Shown here: piece by piece, positions 34,079 to 51,821 of the stretch
Numbering within the stretch: the first letter of the stretch is position 1
Layout: every line of letters starts with the position of its first letter
IMG/VR virus record: IMGVR_UViG_3300023174_000130
Span: 19,216 to 83,215 of that record
Reading direction: 5' to 3' (one strand)
From: a virus
DNA length: 64,000 nt
Notes under the pieces: generated by a model
What the model was told of the DNA's origin: nothing
The model's database searches: none
What the model saw: the letters and a program-made list of their open reading frames with translations, nothing else
Program-made: the position numbers and the translations under genes

Positions 34079-36088
34079 TTAACAAGTTCCGTCTACAACA
34101 TTTTCGGCCCAGAAATATGTAACACTATTATTGGGATCTATCTGTTCAATGCATACTCTTGCAACATGCATTATATTTGCAGATTCTTCAAATGTAGCTG
34201 TAGCTGGTGCGCCAATTGGTCTGTATCCAAATCCAGATGCGGCTGATGTATTTGACCAACCCGGTGGCAAATATGCTCCAGTTAAGCCTCTTTCATTTAA
34301 ATTTATCGCCCATGTTGCATCTTGACTATCATTTGATTTTTCTGAAGGATCTAATGACCATTGTTCCAACAAATGCGGATAATACGTATTACCAGATCCA
34401 CCTGCTCCAGACGCTGAACCACATGCTCCTGATATTCCAGAAGAAAACAATATCTTGTTCCATTTATACCTATAAAATTTTGCACCACTTGGTAGTTCTG
34501 GCGTTGTTTCTGTTTGTGGTTGGAAATTGCCACCAGTGCCACCTGTACCAGTAGCACCATAATAAGCAGTATCTGGCTCATATCGCTGTAATACAGCAAA
34601 GAAACAATTTTCTCCTCTTTTACCCATACAACATAAAGAGTGAATAACAAAGTTTTGTTGTTCTATTTTTCTTAATTGTTCTATGGTATTTTGTATTTTA
34701 GATCCGCCAGTAGGACCAGTTGGTCCAGCAAATTCACTAGATCCACAGTTTCCATTTGTCAAAGCTTTAAAGGTATTATATCTAATATCCATTACTTTTT
34801 GTAAATTCGTACTTTCACCAGGAATAATAGATGTAGCACTAGTTGCATCTGTATCATTTTCATTAGGATAATTTGGATGAATTGGTGTCAAATCAAACAT
34901 ATTTTTCCACATATCAGGACTATCCAAAAATGCCATGTAGCCTTTATCACCCATTAAATTCAATGCACCGTATGACGATTCCATACCATATTGATTTCCC
35001 AACATATTTGTAATGGATCTGTCATTAGTTGGTGTGCCCCCATCATAATATCCCCAAGAATTTTCAGGATAAATTAAATCACCACCAGAAGGAGCTTCAG
35101 TTGCTCTTCCAGCAACACTAACTACATCAATATTATATTTTTGACCATCATCTTGAAATTGAAAAGTTAAATTTTTTAAAGCATTATTTTGTACAGCATT
35201 AATAGCATCACTCTTAGCATCACCAGTTAATCCTGGATCAACTGTTAGATTATTTGTATCTAAGTATTTTGGAGTTTTTCTAATGTAGTAATAATTCTTA
35301 GATATCCATTGATACGCAGGATTTGTGGCCAAGAAATATGCCTTGCGGTACTGTTTTCCATCCGATAATCTTTCTTCAACCGCATCACCATTATAAACAG
35401 CAACATTTACTGGTTCTTCATCTTCTGCACCTACCATATCTCTTGAAAAAGATTTAAAATTAAATGCCCCATTCATAGAAGTCCAAAAGAAAAAATTAGG
35501 ATTTTTGTTTTGATCAACTGCCATGGTTGACAAATAATTCATCATTTCAATTGCATTATCTGGCAGTGCTTCTTCTCTATTATTAAAAGGTATAAATGGT
35601 CTGTATAAGAAATAATTGGATGCCGAATCACGATATCCTTCATCAGCACCAAATGTATGTACCATTTGAGCTACAAATTCATCCACAGTATAAACTTGTG
35701 GGCTTTTATATCCCAATAACTTATTCAAAGAATTGGTAGAAAAATATCTGTAATAATGATTTGTAAAATTTATTACTAATAAAGTTTCTTCAGTATCAGA
35801 TGCTGCGTTATTACTATATGAAACGCTGGTAATATCACATTCCCATTTATCCCCATTAAAAAATTCAATAGTTAAAGTTGTGACAGCATTTAATTCAATT
35901 GCGCTCGCAATATCTTGTTTGTCTTTTACCAATAATGCTCCAGATGGAAGAACATCATTGATATTTTCGACTATTTCTAATCTTTCAAATTGGCATTCTT
36001 GATTTTGTCTTAAAATATCAAGATCGCCTAAATAAATTGATTTTATTGTAGAATACGCTGGATTAAATCTGGACTGTGTATTTGCCAT
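34079..36088 (-). CDS. gp27: baseplate hub protein (gp27-like)
   Basis: 669 residues, longer than T4 gp27 (391). The N-terminal half contains LYRPFIPFNNREEALPDNAI and FFFWTSMNGAFNFKSFSRD, similar to gp27-type hub domains, and QYRKAYFLATNPAYQWISKN. The C-terminal half is rich in glycine and serine. The extra domain may replace a separate spike. Identity is by patterns and position, so moderate. Confidence 0.6.
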   Translation of the reverse strand: MANTQSRFNPAYSTIKSIYLGDLDILRQNQECQFERLEIVENINDVLPSGALLVKDKQDIASAIELNAVTTLTIEFFNGDKWECDITSVSYSNNAASDTEETLLVINFTNHYYRYFSTNSLNKLLGYKSPQVYTVDEFVAQMVHTFGADEGYRDSASNYFLYRPFIPFNNREEALPDNAIEMMNYLSTMAVDQNKNPNFFFWTSMNGAFNFKSFSRDMVGAEDEEPVNVAVYNGDAVEERLSDGKQYRKAYFLATNPAYQWISKNYYYIRKTPKYLDTNNLTVDPGLTGDAKSDAINAVQNNALKNLTFQFQDDGQKYNIDVVSVAGRATEAPSGGDLIYPENSWGYYDGGTPTNDRSITNMLGNQYGMESSYGALNLMGDKGYMAFLDSPDMWKNMFDLTPIHPNYPNENDTDATSATSIIPGESTNLQKVMDIRYNTFKALTNGNCGSSEFAGPTGPTGGSKIQNTIEQLRKIEQQNFVIHSLCCMGKRGENCFFAVLQRYEPDTAYYGATGTGGTGGNFQPQTETTPELPSGAKFYRYKWNKILFSSGISGACGSASGAGGSGNTYYPHLLEQWSLDPSEKSNDSQDATWAINLNERGLTGAYLPPGWSNTSAASGFGYRPIGAPATATFEESANIMHVARVCIEQIDPNNSVTYFWAENVVDGTC

Positions 36089-37827: not shown

Positions 37828-38256
37828 ATGGCATACAGGACAATATTTAACCCAAAGAATCCTAAAAAATATGCTGGGGATTCATCTAAAATTGTATGCA
37901 GATCCTTGTGGGAACGTAATGTATGCAATTTTTGTGATGAACACCCCAATATAATTAAATGGTCTTCTGAAGAAATAGCCATACCTTATGTCAGTCCAAT
38001 TGATAAAAAAATGCACAACTACTATCCAGATTTTTTAATACAATTTAAGAACTCCGATGGAGTGCATACATGGATGGTTGAGGTCAAACCAAAAAAACAA
38101 ACTTTTTTAAAAGAAAATGCTTCAAAAAAAGAAAAGGTAACTTGGATCATAAACAATGCCAAATGGAATGCTGCTAAAAACTATTGCAACAATAATAGTT
38201 TTGTTTTTAAAATTTTAACAGAAAAAGATTTATTTTCTAATGCCAACTCCAAATAA
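37828..38256 (+). CDS. gp4: head completion protein
   Basis: 142 residues (T4 gp4 is 150). FNPKNPKKYAGDSSKIVCRS, LWERNVCNFCDEHPNIIKWS, EEIAIPYVSPIDKKMHNYYP and DFLIQF with VEVKPKKQ form the family fold, which resembles TnsA-like nucleases. It finishes the head before tail joining. It overlaps the next gene by 17 bases. Confidence 0.9.
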   Translation: MAYRTIFNPKNPKKYAGDSSKIVCRSLWERNVCNFCDEHPNIIKWSSEEIAIPYVSPIDKKMHNYYPDFLIQFKNSDGVHTWMVEVKPKKQTFLKENASKKEKVTWIINNAKWNAAKNYCNNNSFVFKILTEKDLFSNANSK

Positions 38257-38848
38257 CAATTCAATTTTATCAATAAAAGACTTTTTTGATCGACACAATG
38301 GTCTTCAAAGATCCAATAGATTTACATTATCTTTTTCTAACTTACCCGGAACACTGCCCAAAGTATCCAACAATGATTTAAATCCATTAGCAATAACAAT
38401 AGGTGCCAGAGCTATAGATGGTGTTGCAGATGGTTTGGCTGGCTATGGTCCCGGTAGAACAATTCCAAGATCTCAAAAGTTTCCTCAAGGTATACTTTTA
38501 ACTTTTCCAGTAACCAATGATAATTTTATTACACTGTTTTTCAATTCATGGTTTAATTTAATATATTCAGGTGGTAGACAATCACCAAAAGCAGCATCAA
38601 CTAATAATGCTAGGAACCCTACACGTTTTCCATATCAAGTTCAATTTTATGACGATATTATTGCGCAAACACAAATGAAGATTTCATTATTGGATCCAAA
38701 TGGAAATCCAAATGTTTCATATAATTTTTTTGAAGTATATCCTGTTGAATGTTTGCCAATTGAATTAAATATGTTGAAGTCTAATGACTATTCAACATAT
38801 ACAGTTCTTATGATGTTTAGAGATTTTAATTTTTATCAAGGAGTCTAA
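38240..38848 (+). CDS. gp54: tail-tube initiator-like protein (gp54-like)
   Basis: 202 residues of the tail-tube fold (RSNRFTLSFSNLPGTLPKV, CLPIELNMLKSNDYSTYTV, MMFRDFNFY). It is related to the three gp19-like proteins on the minus strand but longer. The position before gp26 suits gp54, which starts tube polymerisation on the baseplate. T4 gp54 is 320 residues, so this is shorter and the name is tentative. Confidence 0.55.
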   Translation: MPTPNNNSILSIKDFFDRHNGLQRSNRFTLSFSNLPGTLPKVSNNDLNPLAITIGARAIDGVADGLAGYGPGRTIPRSQKFPQGILLTFPVTNDNFITLFFNSWFNLIYSGGRQSPKAASTNNARNPTRFPYQVQFYDDIIAQTQMKISLLDPNGNPNVSYNFFEVYPVECLPIELNMLKSNDYSTYTVLMMFRDFNFYQGV

Positions 38849-38851
38849 TTT

Positions 38852-39514
38852 ATGGATTTGATGAGTTCTTTAAAAAGCCTGCTACCTACTTATGAAACTA
38901 CTTTACCTTTTTCTAAACAAAAAGTTATTTTTAGACCTTTTAAAGTAAAAGATGCAAAAAGCATTTCTGTTATTCTGCAAGAAGAAAATAAAAAATTAGC
39001 ATTAATATCATTAGTTGAGTTATTAAAAAATAATACTGAAAATGTAAACATACTGAATCTTTGCATGGCTGATGCTGAATTTTTGTTTTTACAAATAAGA
39101 TCTAAAAGTGTAGACGAACAATTGAATTTGATTTACAATCAAGAAAAAATTCAAGTGTATATACCTGATATTAAACATAGAAATGAAATATCATCAGATA
39201 CAATAACACTAACAGATAGTGTTTTTATTACGTTAGAAACTCCAACTATAAAAGATTTATTAAAATTAGATACATTAGATAAAGAAGACTTTTTAAAGGC
39301 CTGTATTAAAAAAGTCAATGTGGGTGGAGAGGTCTTTCATGTTAATAAATTTGTTCCAGACGATATTAAAACTATTTTAGATAATCTACCTTTAAATGTT
39401 TTGCCAAAGTTTGAAGGATTTATGAAAACCCAACCAGAATTGTATGTTGTATTAGAAACACAAGATGGTGACAAGGAGGTCAATGGGTTATTACGTTTTT
39501 TTACCTTTCGGTAA
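38852..39514 (+). CDS. gp26: baseplate hub/tail-assembly protein gp26, zero-frame product
   Basis: 220 residues (T4 gp26 is 208). FSKQKVIFRPFKVKDAKSIS, SVDEQLNLIYNQEKIQVYI, FITLETPTIKDLLKLD and LPLNVLPKFEGFMKTQPELY match the gp26 family. It follows the gp54-like gene after a GGAG ribosome site. The frame ends in RFFTFR. The -1 frame is open from inside this end, after a T7 run, and continues for 69 codons to 39711. Confidence 0.82.
   Translation: MDLMSSLKSLLPTYETTLPFSKQKVIFRPFKVKDAKSISVILQEENKKLALISLVELLKNNTENVNILNLCMADAEFLFLQIRSKSVDEQLNLIYNQEKIQVYIPDIKHRNEISSDTITLTDSVFITLETPTIKDLLKLDTLDKEDFLKACIKKVNVGGEVFHVNKFVPDDIKTILDNLPLNVLPKFEGFMKTQPELYVVLETQDGDKEVNGLLRFFTFR
39496..39502 (+). other. probable -1 frameshift site
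   Basis: T TTT TTT slippery heptamer in gp26 phase (codons CGT TTT TTT ACC). A strong AAGGAGGT lies at 39473-39480, 15 bases upstream, with no gene start at a usable distance. Shifting -1 continues in an open frame to 39711. This is the layout of stimulated frameshifts such as dnaX. Confidence 0.7.
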
Positions 39515-39711
39515 AGTTTTTTGATTTAAAAGATTATTTTACAACAAATTTTACCTTAATAAATAATTTTAACTGGAGTCTATTTGATTTGGACGATATG
39601 ATTTGGTGGGAACGAGAAATTTATGTAAAGATATTAGTAGATTACCAAGAACAGAAAAAACACGAACAAATGTCATCACATTATGATATGGGACGAGGAA
39701 TGAATCTATGA
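39502..39711 (+). CDS. C-terminal extension of gp26 by -1 frameshift (gp51 position)
   Basis: Sixty-nine codons from the slippery site to TGA at 39709-39711, reading YLSVKFFDLKDYF...FDLDDMIWWEREIYVKILVDYQE. This would give a 286-residue fusion. The WWEREIY segment resembles the C-terminal extension of tail-assembly chaperones as I remember them. No ATG or usable ribosome site lies near the beginning; the first ATG is at the methionine of DDMIWW. The stop overlaps the next start as ATGA. Alternatively it is a separate gp51-like gene started inside. Confidence 0.65.
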   Translation, partial: YLSVKFFDLKDYFTTNFTLINNFNWSLFDLDDMIWWEREIYVKILVDYQEQKKHEQMSSHYDMGRGMNL

Positions 39712-40130
39712 ATGAAAATGAAGTATCAATAGACGTATCAGCAGAACAAAAATCTTTTTCTGCAGCATTAATGCCTTCAAGCATACAATCCGCAGAAGTT
39801 TCTTCTGAACAACAAAATGTCGTTTTACCAGAATCAATTTCTTATACGGCTACTCAACCAGATATTAAAAATTCAGCTCAAGCTGAAGTTTCAAAAACCG
39901 CAGTAGATTTAAAAATTAAATTTGATGCAGAAGCCCAATATAAAGAATTAAGAACATCTGTTGATGGTATACAGTCATCTTTATCTTCTTTAGCAAATAA
40001 TGCTAGAGACTCTTGGTTACCAAATCCAAGACCTGTTGATAAATTTGAAGAACGTCCTTTGACAGAACCTACTAATTTAATATTTGAAGCCAGACGAGAA
40101 AGATTTTCAGAATTTCCCAGATGGGCATAA
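39708..40130 (+). CDS. small tail or baseplate protein, unknown
   Basis: 140 residues. The N-terminal half is low-complexity and Ser/Gln/Ala-rich, residues about 75-100 form a coiled coil (DAEAQYKELRTSVDGIQSSL), and the C-terminus is basic and aromatic (ARRERFSEFPRWA). Its start overlaps the extension above. The position after a chaperone pair is where tape-measure genes usually lie, but this is far too short for one. Terminated by the hairpin at 40132. Confidence 0.5.
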   Translation: MNENEVSIDVSAEQKSFSAALMPSSIQSAEVSSEQQNVVLPESISYTATQPDIKNSAQAEVSKTAVDLKIKFDAEAQYKELRTSVDGIQSSLSSLANNARDSWLPNPRPVDKFEERPLTEPTNLIFEARRERFSEFPRWA

Positions 40131-44984: not shown

Positions 44985-47900
44985 TTATTCTTCTATAACA
45001 AAACATTGCATATTGGCTGTTTTTCCAAATGGCTGTGGTACTCCTTCTTCAGAAGGTATACATACTGCTTCAAATGGTCCAGATTCAGTTTGTCCATCCA
45101 TACCTATAAAACATAGTGCTGTACCAACAGTAAGTCCACCACAATTTAAACTACTATAATCCGAATAAACATCGTCGTATATTCTCCAAAGTCTGGGTAT
45201 ACCACTAATTGGTACAGGTTCTTCGGCTTCCGTTCCCATTCCGGGCAATGGTTTTGTTGATGGATAGTAGTTGATAGGATCATCTAAAGAATATTCTTTG
45301 TCTACTCGGTATATTAAATTTGGATTTAATCTACAACAGAATTTACATCCCGGACAAGAACGGTCATTGTTTGGGCAGCTTCCTGTTGGATATAAATCTC
45401 TAGGACAATCACAGCAACCACCTCCACTTGATGCAAAAGATGATCTATCTCCACACCAACAATTGCATGCAAAAGTCATTCCAGGTGGAAGAGGTCCAGT
45501 ATATCCTGTGAATGAAACTAGAGGACCCAACCAATCATCTGTCTTAGCAGCATCCATGTATAAAATTTTATTAAAGGATCCATTAATACTGTCATTCATA
45601 AAACCATTAATAGATATTGGAGGTGGTGCATCAGTACAGAATTTTCTGCCATAAGAATGTGCCCATCCTCCAGGACCAACTAAATTTTCTACAGAGGATT
45701 GACATACACTTGCTCCATTCCCTGATCCACAAGGATTTTCAGTTCTACAAGGATCATCATTGGGAACAACTTTGCAAATATCACATGCTGTGCCTACTAT
45801 AGATTGTGATAAATGTTTTTTTAGTGTATAAAGAGTTCTTCCACCAACATAAACATATGGATATGACATAGTCGATTCTACATTATATGCTTTTGGAATT
45901 GAATTTTTTGGTGTCATTAACTCATTAATAAGTTCTGATGATGTCATACCATAAACGCCACTGGGAACAGGATAGTTATTTCCGACATAATGATTTCTAT
46001 ATGGTATTGGTGCTGTTTGAACTTCATATAAAGAAGTTTCAGCATTGTAACCATAATAATAATTACGTTTAGCATAAAAGAATCCAGTAATATTTGTTTT
46101 AACTACACCACAACATTGTCCTAGTCCAGTATCCATATTATCACTAGATACTTTTCCAAATCCTTTTGCTGATTGTATAAAATAATCTTTATTTGAATTG
46201 AAACCTATTCGGCCATTAACATTACCAAAACATCTTTCGCCAAAATATGGTCCACCACTACAATCATAAGCTTGTTTTTCTCGTCTACTTGGAGGACAGC
46301 CACATACTGCATCATTACACTTGCAAAACGGTGTTCCGCGACCGGGTGTAAATCCATAGCCACTAAATGCAAATGCAGAAGGACTTCCGTCACCAATCCA
46401 GCATATATCTCCACCAAAACATGCTCCAAATTCATTATTTAAATTTCGATTAGCAGTGGCAATTGAACTATTTGGATCACCACCATTGCCATTTTCAGTA
46501 TTTGGCCTTAAACCATCTCTACCATCCCTATCACGCAACATACCACATCCTTTACCGGGATATGGTTCATACGTGTGAAGAGGAGTAGCTTGCTGTATAC
46601 GTCTCCAATCTGGTCGCATCCAATAATATTGAGGATGCCCAGAAAATGATCTATTTAAATCATGAGTCTTTGTATAGTAGACACTGGTCAGATCTACATT
46701 ACCAACAATATTTTGAGATATTTCGCTTTGTATAGAATTACAAGGCATACCAAAAAACCATTTTGAAAAATCCCATCTTCCAGGAACTGCTCTAAAAAAT
46801 GCTTGAGTTCTAAAATAGATAGGTAAATCACCAAAATTTTTAAATTGCAATTTGGAATGATCTACATCAAACGATGAAGCTTTCCATGTCTGTGCTTGTG
46901 TACCTGATGTAAAGATTGTTGACACACTTCCAGATGTAAAAGATAAATCACTATAATCATTTTTACCAATTCCAGCAGTAAGTCCTCTATTTGCATCTGG
47001 TCTTGGAAATATTTCAATTCTTGTCTTTGAAGAATTCTTTCTTCTATAAACAACTCCAATGGCATTTGGGCCAGCAGTAATTTTATCTATTTTATCATAA
47101 TTTTTTGCATAAAACGCAGTAAGACCAGAATAAGTAACACCAGATACTGCTGTTACCATTTCAGAATTTCCCCATACAACTAATCTATGCTTGTCTCCAG
47201 CTTTTCTTGCCATAATACTGTAATCTGGACCACCATCTATTGCAAATATACTAGCAGAACTGAATATTGTTTTGTCTGCTGTTGTATATACTTTATATTT
47301 TGAATGATCCCAATTTTCACCACAATTTTCTTGGGTTGCGCAAATATCACTACATCCAGTTACACCACCAGCAGGCCCAAGCTTCCATTCATCTGGAAAT
47401 ATTTCACTATGAGGTAAAAATACTGGTATAGGATTATTATTTGTAAAACTATTTTCTTCATTTAATGGTTCTCCATCTTCATCTACTTTTACATATGATC
47501 CCCATATTTTTAAATTATTGTCATCAGATAATGCAATACTATGATAATGACCTGCTGCAACTTGCGTGTATACGGGAACATCTGGCTCAATTGCTTTTAT
47601 GCAACTATATCCCCATTCTGCGCCACAAGAATTTTTACTAGCTCCTAATAAATTTCCTTGATCGATGCTTGGTTGAAATAATTGGCATCTAATATCACAA
47701 GGAATAGCATTTTCTCCTTCACTCCAAGATACGCTACCTACTGGTTGATTACTATTTACACAATGAGTGATATTCCACCATTCTTTATTTTCTGGTAAAG
47801 ACAGAGTAGAATTTCTTTGTATTAAAGTATTCCATTCATCTTCTGTAAAATATCCTGGTTTTGGAAGATGATAATAATAAAATAATGCTTGATATCCATT

Positions 47901-50900
47901 TGGAGCAGCTAGTTGTTGCGTACCCCTTTTTTCAGCAAGCTCTCTTTTTCCTGATATTGTTGGATATCCATACGATGATTGATTATATGTATTATCACTA
48001 GTTGGAGTTGCAAACAAAGAACCACCAGATGTTATTGCAATAGTATGTTTAACTCCACATGCTACATCTTTCCATATAAAAAATTTATTATTAAGATCGT
48101 ATCTAAATTGATTTACACCAGGATAACAATTTGCTTGAATATAATCAGAAATGTAACGAGTATCATCATAAAAAATTCCATAATCGATATCAGCATCATC
48201 TCCTCCACCATTTCCCTTTCCCCACGCTTTCAAAACATACATTTCATTGCTGTTTGACTCAGCACAACTAAATGAACCAGATGGATATATAAAAAATGGT
48301 GTACCAACAATTTCCCAACCAGAATTTGAAAATTTCTTTCGTTTGTAATTAGTTTCATTGCATCCAGGATTTACGTGCCATAAATTTGGACCAGAGACAA
48401 CACCTTCTGTATATTCCACCAAAGCAACAGCAAATTTTCCTTTTGAAGATATTTTTTCTACTCTTCCATCTGGAAGAGTAAAATTTTGATTTTCTTCTTC
48501 ATATATTATTCCAAGTTCGGGTGCTACCGATAAATTACATGGAACTGCTCCAACATCCGTATCAAAATAATTTCCATCGCATATTGGTTGAATATCACCA
48601 GTAGGACATGGAGGTTCAACATCTACTTGTATATTTGCATATTCTGGTGAGCAACCTACATCTGCAGGATCTCCACTGGGTGGTACTGATCCTCGTCCAA
48701 ATGCTCTGACCTTTCCATTTGTTGTTACGGCAAACCAAGTTTGTTGACCACCAAAGAGAGAGGTATATGCTAGAAGATCGTCGGGATCTTGATTAGATTT
48801 AACATTTAAAACACTTTCTTTGGTATCACATATACCTGCTCCAGTGCATCCCCATGTTGTCAAACCTGCTCCAATAGGTGTTGGCCATAATTTGGCTCTA
48901 CGCGGACCAGCAAACATTGGACCTGGAATACCACTAACAAGATTTTCTTGCCTTGGATTGATTAAATTATTTTTCATCAATTTAGCAGTAACATATGGTT
49001 TTAATGCTGCCCAAATGGTAAAATCATCTTTATCAGAAAAATTGGCTTCTGGATTGTCTGCTAAGATTTTTCCTTCCAACCAATTAATCATTTCATAATA
49101 TCCAGTTTTCTTACCTAAGAAAGCTTCGACATCTGCATCAAGAAATACTGGATCAGGGCGCCCATCTGCTGGTGGGTGTTCTGGATCTATTGGTTCTAAT
49201 TCTACACTATCTAATAATTCTATTAATTCTGTGGCTATATCTCCTGCATGATCTTTAACACTGATAACATTGTATCGTATCATTTCTTTTAACCATGCTG
49301 TTACATATTCGTAATCATCTACATCATTTGATTCTACTACAGGTTCATTATAAATGGTCTCTCCTGGATCTGTAATTTTATTATAAAAATAAAGATAAAA
49401 TTTTTCTATAAAATCTTCTCCACTAAAGAAATTTCCATTTACAACAACATTTTTAGCTATAGAAATTTTTTCCATAGCATGTAAATCAGAATGAAACAAA
49501 GGAACAACTGAAGATCCATACATTACTCTGCGAGGGAAACTACGCATAGCCTGATATCTAAATGCTTCTCTAGGATCATATATAAAATTATTTTTTGTCC
49601 ATCTGCCAGCATATGGTCTTTCATATGGAGTTATTAACATATTACAATGATTCATGGGTATCGGTGGAGCCGGTGTAAACAGTGCTTTACTATGATACGC
49701 CCAGGATTCAAAATGATGATCCATACCAATCAAACCAACCATTTTATGGAATAAATTACTTTTTTTATTAAAAGTCTTTTTAAACGATGCATTATTCCAA
49801 CCATATTTACCTGGTGAGATTATAGTAGGTGAATAAAATGGACCTAATACTTCTTGTTCTTTTGCTACTGTTGATCCATAATGAAAAACATCTTTGGCAG
49901 CAGGATATAATCTTTGAGATATTCTACTCAAATAAGGAGATATTCCTCTTGCAAAACATTGTTTGTTATAATTTGGATTGAACAAAGGAGTATTTGCATT
50001 CTCACCTTGTGTTCCAATATTACAATATGATCCTAAAGTTGGAGAAGATTTTCCAAAACCACTTGCTTTTGGCCAAGCTGCTCTAGCATTTCTTCTAGCA
50101 TCTAAACCACCATAACATGCAGAAGTTGTTGGATTTGATGTATTTGCACAAGAACAACAACCAGCTTCGCTGACAAACATTGGTGGAGCAAATGGCTCTT
50201 GTGAAGGAATATAGCCACCTTGTTGTACTCTTTGAGAAACATTAAAAGATTTTCTAGCAGTATCTACTAAACCACCACTTAAATGTGGATATCTCATACA
50301 TTGACATGGATATGTTGTTCTATCTCTGCATTTACATGCTATGCCAGTTGGACAATTACCAAACGCATAATGGGCCATGCAACTAAGACAAGGAGTTCCA
50401 TCACTACCATCTGCTTCATATCCACTACCAGATAATAAAAAGTCACATGTCTTTAATCCAGAAAATAGTGATTGAGTTTTTTTCCATCCCGATCCTTGTG
50501 CAATTTTTGTTTGATAATTAAAAATATATTCTGGTGGATACCAAACCATATGACATCCAGTATATCGATATATAAAATATAATGGAGCGGCGCCCGGTGA
50601 TCCTCCATTAACAGGACAAACTCCGCATTGCCAAGGTTTACCTTGTAAACCATCCTCATTAATAGGACCATTTTCGCCAGGTCCAATCTCTGGAATAATA
50701 AAAGAATTTACAGAACTTATTAATCCTGATCCACCGGGTGTTTGATTGGGTGCAGGAATTGTTGGTGGATATTTTGTTTCTGGACCAAAGAAATTATTTA
50801 ATTCGGCACCACCGTTTGTTAATAATCTAGATTGATCTAAAGTAGTTAGTAATGGATCAAGTTCTGCAACTAAACCATTTCCATTTACTAATATATTTCC

Positions 50901-51821
50901 ATTATATAGATCCGGATTGTCAAATGTTGTACCTTTTGCCGAATCATAATTTTTAGTATAAATTGGATGCGCAAATAATTGATTTATATTATTGTGTTGA
51001 TTTACTGTATCACCATAATAACCACTACAATATACTTCGCATTCCTTTTGACACGATGCACAAAAATTAATATTTGCATCTTTACAATCTACTGAATTAT
51101 TTCTAATACAGTCTAGATCATAACCATTATCTATTATACACTGTTTGCAAACAGGGTAAAGATTATCTAATTTATCTTTAAATCTTTTATTTGCACTTGG
51201 TACAACTGTTTCAACTGCGTTAGAACTAATATTTTTTTTAATCGTAGTTTGTTTAGTCTTTTGCGCTATAAGTTCATCAGTAGTTTTAATATTATATGCT
51301 GTACCATAATTTATTGGAGTTTTTGTTCCACGGCTAACTAACTTTTTAAACATCTGTGAAACATTAAAAGTAACATTGTCTGAATGAGTATTAGTAGTTT
51401 GTTTGAAAGTAGGACAATTAGGATCTATAGTAGGATCACACTTACCAGTACATATACTACAGCATTCTCTACATCCTCCACCAAATACTACAGATTCTGT
51501 AGCAGCGGGTACCTCAGGAGCTCCGTCAAGTGTACAATTATCGTCTTTACACTTATATACGGGTGGACATTCACTGCATTGACTTGGTGCGCATTGCGTA
51601 CAACAAGCTGGGCAAGGTTCTACACCTGGTACATTTGGATTTTGATTATCTAATTCCAAACTGCTTGTTCTAGATACTGGTCTATTAATTTTTAAAGAAA
51701 TTAAATCACCAGGTGAAACCGGTACGGCGCTATCTAATAAATTTCCAAAAATTGTAACAAATTGATTTGTTAAGCAATAATCATCAACCGCAACATCACA
51801 GCAACATAATTTTTTAGGCAT
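44985..51821 (-). CDS. giant cysteine-rich virion/adhesin protein with RCC1-like repeats
   Basis: 2278 residues, by far the longest gene here. By my count it has about 95 cysteines, in clusters: the N-terminus (LCCCDVAVDDYC, CPACCTQCAPSQCSEC), a GGGCRECCSICTGKCD block, and the C-terminus (GGGCCDCPRDLYP, CPGCKFCCRLN). Several RCC1-type repeats lie in the middle (CGVKHTIAITSGGSL, VAAGHYHSIALSDDNNLKIW, DKHRLVVWGNSEMVTAVSGV), suggesting a beta-propeller segment. There is no signal peptide or membrane segment. It has a late box and GGTGAGACC. Probably a host-recognition or tail-fibre-like protein; the function is inferred. Confidence 0.6.
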   Translation of the reverse strand: MPKKLCCCDVAVDDYCLTNQFVTIFGNLLDSAVPVSPGDLISLKINRPVSRTSSLELDNQNPNVPGVEPCPACCTQCAPSQCSECPPVYKCKDDNCTLDGAPEVPAATESVVFGGGCRECCSICTGKCDPTIDPNCPTFKQTTNTHSDNVTFNVSQMFKKLVSRGTKTPINYGTAYNIKTTDELIAQKTKQTTIKKNISSNAVETVVPSANKRFKDKLDNLYPVCKQCIIDNGYDLDCIRNNSVDCKDANINFCASCQKECEVYCSGYYGDTVNQHNNINQLFAHPIYTKNYDSAKGTTFDNPDLYNGNILVNGNGLVAELDPLLTTLDQSRLLTNGGAELNNFFGPETKYPPTIPAPNQTPGGSGLISSVNSFIIPEIGPGENGPINEDGLQGKPWQCGVCPVNGGSPGAAPLYFIYRYTGCHMVWYPPEYIFNYQTKIAQGSGWKKTQSLFSGLKTCDFLLSGSGYEADGSDGTPCLSCMAHYAFGNCPTGIACKCRDRTTYPCQCMRYPHLSGGLVDTARKSFNVSQRVQQGGYIPSQEPFAPPMFVSEAGCCSCANTSNPTTSACYGGLDARRNARAAWPKASGFGKSSPTLGSYCNIGTQGENANTPLFNPNYNKQCFARGISPYLSRISQRLYPAAKDVFHYGSTVAKEQEVLGPFYSPTIISPGKYGWNNASFKKTFNKKSNLFHKMVGLIGMDHHFESWAYHSKALFTPAPPIPMNHCNMLITPYERPYAGRWTKNNFIYDPREAFRYQAMRSFPRRVMYGSSVVPLFHSDLHAMEKISIAKNVVVNGNFFSGEDFIEKFYLYFYNKITDPGETIYNEPVVESNDVDDYEYVTAWLKEMIRYNVISVKDHAGDIATELIELLDSVELEPIDPEHPPADGRPDPVFLDADVEAFLGKKTGYYEMINWLEGKILADNPEANFSDKDDFTIWAALKPYVTAKLMKNNLINPRQENLVSGIPGPMFAGPRRAKLWPTPIGAGLTTWGCTGAGICDTKESVLNVKSNQDPDDLLAYTSLFGGQQTWFAVTTNGKVRAFGRGSVPPSGDPADVGCSPEYANIQVDVEPPCPTGDIQPICDGNYFDTDVGAVPCNLSVAPELGIIYEEENQNFTLPDGRVEKISSKGKFAVALVEYTEGVVSGPNLWHVNPGCNETNYKRKKFSNSGWEIVGTPFFIYPSGSFSCAESNSNEMYVLKAWGKGNGGGDDADIDYGIFYDDTRYISDYIQANCYPGVNQFRYDLNNKFFIWKDVACGVKHTIAITSGGSLFATPTSDNTYNQSSYGYPTISGKRELAEKRGTQQLAAPNGYQALFYYYHLPKPGYFTEDEWNTLIQRNSTLSLPENKEWWNITHCVNSNQPVGSVSWSEGENAIPCDIRCQLFQPSIDQGNLLGASKNSCGAEWGYSCIKAIEPDVPVYTQVAAGHYHSIALSDDNNLKIWGSYVKVDEDGEPLNEENSFTNNNPIPVFLPHSEIFPDEWKLGPAGGVTGCSDICATQENCGENWDHSKYKVYTTADKTIFSSASIFAIDGGPDYSIMARKAGDKHRLVVWGNSEMVTAVSGVTYSGLTAFYAKNYDKIDKITAGPNAIGVVYRRKNSSKTRIEIFPRPDANRGLTAGIGKNDYSDLSFTSGSVSTIFTSGTQAQTWKASSFDVDHSKLQFKNFGDLPIYFRTQAFFRAVPGRWDFSKWFFGMPCNSIQSEISQNIVGNVDLTSVYYTKTHDLNRSFSGHPQYYWMRPDWRRIQQATPLHTYEPYPGKGCGMLRDRDGRDGLRPNTENGNGGDPNSSIATANRNLNNEFGACFGGDICWIGDGSPSAFAFSGYGFTPGRGTPFCKCNDAVCGCPPSRREKQAYDCSGGPYFGERCFGNVNGRIGFNSNKDYFIQSAKGFGKVSSDNMDTGLGQCCGVVKTNITGFFYAKRNYYYGYNAETSLYEVQTAPIPYRNHYVGNNYPVPSGVYGMTSSELINELMTPKNSIPKAYNVESTMSYPYVYVGGRTLYTLKKHLSQSIVGTACDICKVVPNDDPCRTENPCGSGNGASVCQSSVENLVGPGGWAHSYGRKFCTDAPPPISINGFMNDSINGSFNKILYMDAAKTDDWLGPLVSFTGYTGPLPPGMTFACNCWCGDRSSFASSGGGCCDCPRDLYPTGSCPNNDRSCPGCKFCCRLNPNLIYRVDKEYSLDDPINYYPSTKPLPGMGTEAEEPVPISGIPRLWRIYDDVYSDYSSLNCGGLTVGTALCFIGMDGQTESGPFEAVCIPSEEGVPQPFGKTANMQCFVIEE

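Follow-up and report, generated by a model that had tools for sequence, protein, structure and literature searches.

A -1 shift that yields two chaperone forms has reportedly been described for several T4-like groups by Vladimirov, Gautam and Davidson in 2022 (Virology 566:9-15), in a study that is said to name genes 26 and 51 of T4. As conveyed by later papers that cite this work, polyT slippery sequences are known in the TAC-N genes of T4-like phages (PMC12846349, citing Vladimirov, Gautam and Davidson 2022), and some T4-like phages carry separate short and long genes instead (PMC10885494, citing Vladimirov, Gautam and Davidson 2022). In T4 itself, both gp26 and gp51 are counted among the hub assembly chaperones; gp51 is required, yet absent from the finished particle (PMC3004832). 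Neither of the products of lambda G and GT is found in the virion (PMC5009743). According to the citing papers, a frameshifted gp26/gp51 chaperone has already been reported for T4-like phages, and the locus analysed here is a new, well-supported case.

The window, i.e., the whole stretch of 64,000 nucleotides that was analysed, comprises positions 19216-83215 of the 83 kb IMG/VR virus record IMGVR_UViG_3300023174_000130, the contig of which is incomplete. A major head protein, a portal and a tail sheath stabiliser encoded in the window assign it to the T4-like phages, and its source is an uncultivated T4-like virus of bacteria; a phage nucleotide search has returned, among the matches listed, only the neighbouring gp32 region and no close isolate. 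For comparison, 80 related IMG/VR loci with identities down to ∼50% have been fetched, 79 of which hold both parts of the gene, and 31 representatives with less than 90% identity to one another have been selected. Gene 26 (38852-39514, plus strand) encodes in the zero frame a protein of 220 aa that matches PF12322 (T4_baseplate, 2.9e-23) and PHROG 150 (3.4e-25), the short tail-assembly chaperone (TAC-N), and ends with the stop codon at 39512-39514. The open -1 frame spans 39472 to 39711, and its part from 39502 to 39711 (plus strand) forms an extension of 69 codons plus the TGA stop (39709-39711), in which WWEREIY is conserved among relatives. The earlier note had expected 69 further open codons, a fusion form of 286 residues and an ATGA overlap with the next gene, all of which are borne out by the reading frames: the -1 frame runs to 39711, 217 shared and 69 new residues add up to 286, and the TGA overlaps the ORF that begins at 39708.

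The extension matches PHROG 634 (“baseplate hub assembly catalyst,” 1e-14) and constitutes a gp51-like C-terminal domain (TAC-C) of the predicted fusion (TAC-NC); in a profile search of the whole contig, the -1 frame after gp26 has been the sole match to PHROG 634. The fusion aligns with PHROG 150 up to position 276 of 282, whereas gp26 alone reaches only 233, so that the fusion combines a match to near the end of this profile with a match to PHROG 634, as does T4 gp51, the C-terminal part of which also matches PHROG 634. T4 gp51 thus corresponds to the fusion and T4 gp26 to the unshifted gp26, and the chaperone-type fusion of the earlier note has gained a homologue and an architecture. As T4 gp26 and T4 gp51 each match PF12322 over their whole length, they are paralogues, and from this paralogy together with the gp51 architecture of the fusion it follows that gene 26 would make two tail-assembly chaperones, one short and one long. 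An AF2 model, which covers the 220-aa form of gp26 only, has a mean pLDDT of 87.5, and T4-like gp26/gp51 proteins are among its best fold matches in BFVD; against the PDB, the fold search has given nothing significant (HK97 chaperone 2ob9 at E 0.89, probability 0.28) and the sequence comparison no match. The chaperone function of both products is suggested by homology and by the analogy to lambda G/GT (PMC5009743). Anatomy, conservation, constraint at the DNA level and the homology of both parts are demonstrated here, and from the sequence we infer the occurrence and the rate of a -1 shift in gene 26. Judged in this way, one gene 26 almost certainly gives rise to two tail-assembly chaperones by a -1 slip at seven Ts.

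The gene directly upstream (38240-38848, plus strand) encodes a tail-tube-like protein of the gp54 or gp19 type (PHROG 45 tail tube, 9.7e-11). The next gene, which overlaps the extension (39708-40130, plus strand), encodes 140 aa and is conserved in relatives at 139-204 aa with a common FEERPT..NLIFE.RR end; it has no PHROG match and is not recognisable as a tape measure, a point that weighs against the proposed reading of gene 26. In related phages a long gene with weak tape-measure matches stands at this downstream place, and the present lineage may have either a very short tape measure or one located elsewhere, the contig being incomplete. Two further ORFs of the window lack a PHROG match: one of 2278 aa with a Cys-rich start (44985-51821, minus strand), the product of which is probably a large virion or adsorption protein, and one of 669 aa (34079-36088) in the baseplate region among T4-like baseplate genes, the place of which suggests a candidate hub protein.

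The T TTT TTT that the earlier note had seen near the end of gp26, in phase for a -1 shift, has been confirmed at 39496-39502 (plus strand), where the gp26 frame reads (CG)T TTT TTT and thus presents XXXYYYZ in phase. An in-phase heptamer alone is weak evidence, as 201 heptamers of the A/T type, six of them T TTT TTT, occur in phase in window ORFs of about 100 aa or more. Checked in the relatives, the heptamer is in phase and its T run exactly seven long in 80/80 sequences, and the -1 frame relation together with T TTT TTT is present in all 79 loci that hold both parts; among the 31 representatives, the TTT TTT codons hardly or never change. In E. coli, U UUU UUU has been reported as less prone to shifting than A AAA AAG (PMC5009743), and this modest shiftiness is a weak point against the reading as a -1 shift.

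Fifteen bases upstream of the heptamer, as the earlier note had described, lies AAGGAGGT (39473-39480, plus strand), a Shine-Dalgarno(SD)-like motif inside the gp26 frame and the only copy on both strands of the 64 kb window. The motif is kept in 73/80 sequences, its GAGGT core in 80/80, and the distance from GAGGT to the heptamer is 15 nt in every one of the 80. The conserved Glu of the motif is encoded by GAG in 31/31 representatives (GAG makes up 12.6% of Glu codons) and the conserved Lys by AAG in 27/28 (14% of Lys codons). Across the 31 representatives, synonymous constraint is limited to AAG GAG GT, TTT TTT and CGG, while the adjoining Gly, Leu and Val codons, which also specify invariant residues, have undergone 11 to 14 changes on the tree. 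An upstream SD of -7.2 kcal/mol or better has been found in every representative of the window clade; SD use at the gene starts of the window is only moderate, which speaks against the reading. We regard AAGGAGGT as a putative stimulator of the shift. Stimulation of a -1 shift has been reported for distances of 9-14 nt (PMC5009743), and the 15 nt found here slightly exceed this range, which counts as a weak point against a dnaX-like reading. The statement that AAGGAGGT has no gene to start has proven nearly right, but an ATG at 39483, 3 nt past the motif, opens an ORF of 13 codons in the third frame; as this mini-ORF is kept in only 2/31 representatives, it has been rejected.

As AAGGAGGT resembles a ribosome site, the -1 frame might also be a separate gene 51 that is started independently, perhaps from this motif or by translational coupling, and several public records are annotated accordingly: S-PM2, for example, carries a separate gp51 whose ATG directly follows the gp26 stop, and in phiM7 a separate gp51 starts 9 nt past that stop. 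In the window clade, however, the -1 frame has no common ATG, GTG or TTG before a TTG/ATG located 77/86 nt past the gp26 stop, and a start there would lose FFYLSVKFFDL, a peptide of eleven residues that is identical in 31/31 representatives from the first slip codon on. Non-ATG starts in the -1 frame (ATT and the like) have been rejected, as they are not conserved, and an early start is absent in many cyanophage loci, too. The five -1-frame codons before the heptamer are variable among the 31 representatives, and in nine loci (3/31 representatives) a -1-frame TAA stands between AAGGAGGT and the heptamer, directly 5' of the latter. From this TAA and from the conservation that begins at the slip codons it follows that the frame change is confined to the stretch from the heptamer to the gp26 stop, and that independent initiation cannot yield the conserved part. 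Relatives in which the second frame has its own start codon, which the earlier note had named as a refuting case, have been looked for in the clade, and none has a start able to make the conserved domain. Separate initiation is thus very unlikely, and the -1 shift is retained as the source of the second product.

A third element, a stem past the slip site, had been overlooked in the earlier note; its proposal of a dnaX-like set of signals is upheld and extended by it. The 5' arm GGTAAAGTTT (39510-39519, plus strand) begins 7 nt past the heptamer and spans the end of gp26, the 3' arm AAATTTTACC is at 39546-39555 (plus strand), and 10/10 pairs are formed in the window. For the 50 nt that begin 5 nt past the heptamer, folding of the 31 representatives has given a mean z of -4.1 relative to shuffles, and over 34 distinct sequences 96.5% of the cells of the stem are paired. 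In six cells both partners have changed (A-U to G-C and the reverse), whereas shuffles yield 1.1 such cells and slid versions of the same 34 sequences 0 to 3. Moreover, the 3' arm exists in two mutually exclusive positions: five sequences have ACT or ACA as the distal Thr codon and ACC as the near one, which brings the 3' arm closer, whereas the remaining 36 carry ACC at the distal Thr codon and never at the near one. Since all double changes come from three related sequences and the arm swap is confined to five, each may have arisen only once, and the covariation reflects few, probably single, events in evolution. An invariant CGG codon (3% usage) stands at the foot of the stem, where both reading frames also constrain it, and because the arms are coding, part of their conservation has another cause. 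The stem is a candidate 3' stimulator of the shift and would be the third signal of a cassette in which SD, heptamer and stem fit within about 85 nt.

A run of identical bases invites transcriptional slippage as well, by which mRNAs with a base lost or added would give the fusion through normal translation, and bacterial slippage on long runs of A or T is a known phenomenon (PMC5009743). In that review, however, the runs considered have nine bases, whereas the run of the clade is fixed at seven and the cyanophages have only six Ts followed by a C; an invariant SD spacing and a 3' stem with a fixed spacer are not expected from slippage alone, and we consider this explanation highly improbable. 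A real split of the gene, with gp51 as a decaying remnant, or a frame change that stems from a sequencing or assembly error, has in its favour solely that annotation tools missed the second frame, and it is refuted by conservation, as the same frame relation recurs in 79/79 metagenome loci with both parts and in 85/86 loci on the cyanophage side and the -1-frame protein is strongly conserved. A programmed -1 ribosomal frameshift with dnaX-like signals, by which two proteins would be made from gene 26, is therefore the reading in which we place high confidence.

The wider group consists of 86 further loci, mostly of the cyanophage type and including S-PM2, Mosig, ValKK3 and phiM7, of which 84 show the -1 relation at T TTT TTC and phiM7 at T TTT TTT. 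The Kyanoviridae and others shift to the same -1 frame at one or the other of these heptamers, and T TTT TTC has been seen by eye in BUCT608 and phiAS5; no shift has been found in L161 and only a short extension in L164, which may be damaged or divergent contigs. In Salmonella phage Marshall (Ackermannviridae; around 2241), omitted from these counts, gp26 also seems to be followed by a -1 frame resembling gp51; no T TTT TTY is recognisable at the site (GAA ATT TTC ATT TAA), and the phage may rely on another slip site or another solution. The stimulators differ by lineage, the window clade having a strong SD and one stem, the cyanophages other hairpins and, in many of them, a weak or absent SD: in only 21/51 cyanophage-type loci measured does the SD reach -6 kcal/mol, and hairpins past the site occur in many of them (mean z -2.7 vs. 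-0.3 for the background). The cyanophage hairpin (A3) is paired in 92.4% of cells, with no double changes and a covariation equal to shuffles. As slip site and frame are common and the stimulators differ between groups, the former appear older than the latter, a conclusion drawn from this distribution and not from a tree. In the public annotation of several of these phages the second product is missing or mis-started: gp51 appears as a separate gene with a doubtful start in S-PM2 and phiM7, starts inside the domain in Mosig, and is absent from the annotation of Sf-CH1b and ACG-2014i. All five would be compatible with a joined frameshift CDS, and these records can now be corrected.

According to the mechanism that we propose, most ribosomes would end at 39512-39514 and release the 220-aa gp26 as the short chaperone, and a minority would slip at T TTT TTT and continue in the -1 frame. 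During the slip, the anti-SD of the 16S rRNA would grip AAGGAGGT behind the ribosome and the stem-loop ahead would block the mRNA, after which the slipped ribosomes would complete the 286-aa gp26-gp51 fusion as the long chaperone. If the analogy to lambda gpG/gpGT holds, a large number of short and a small number of long copies would coat or guide the tape-measure or hub protein, with the extra domain recruiting a tail tube or hub partner. A more far-reaching scenario, which we offer tentatively and deem rather unlikely as a whole, would have a T4-like ancestor with a -1 cassette for its hub/tail chaperones, the stimulators of which turned over while slip site and frame were kept; the T4 branch would have replaced the cassette by duplication, and in the window clade the anti-SD would act over 15 nt, a distance beyond those studied to date, with the 3' arm switching between two positions. 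As frameshifting would supply the same pair in this clade and in cyanophages, whereas T4 uses two genes, the locus is a clean case for the question of how a fixed ratio of short to long chaperone is set, and in its compact, conserved cassette the three control signals stand out with unusual clarity.

In comparison to known systems, the locus shares with the T4-like -1 shift chaperones of Vladimirov et al. (2022), as described by the papers that cite them, a TAC-N of the gp26 family, a TAC-C that corresponds to the gp51 domain, and a polyT slip near the 3' end of TAC-N from which the long form arises by -1; relative to what those papers report, the window adds a stimulator of the AAGGAGGT type that is invariant, together with a defined stem on the 3' side. 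In the literature examined, in which Vladimirov et al. (2022) is represented by citing papers, the combination of SD, heptamer and stem has not been found described for gene 26. From the cyanophage systems the window differs by T TTT TTT in place of T TTT TTC, and its clade is uncultivated, with a gp26 only 25-28% identical to that of cyanophages. In T4, both proteins match PF12322 and gp51 has the extra PHROG 634 domain, like the fusion; the two are separate genes, as the earlier note had stated, divergently arranged with 26 on the minus and 51 on the plus strand, whereas a single gene of the window would supply both forms. In lambda G/GT and in systems of the HK97 gp13 type, too, a single gene yields two forms of different length, the long one through a -1 shift close to where its first ORF ends; a sequence relation to the present locus is not detectable. 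The E. coli dnaX cassette is alike in the order of its upstream SD, heptamer and downstream stem-loop; its heptamer is A AAA AAG, whereas the window has U UUU UUU with the SD at 15 nt, and the dnaX shift leads to a shorter product, whereas the shift predicted here would lead to a longer one.
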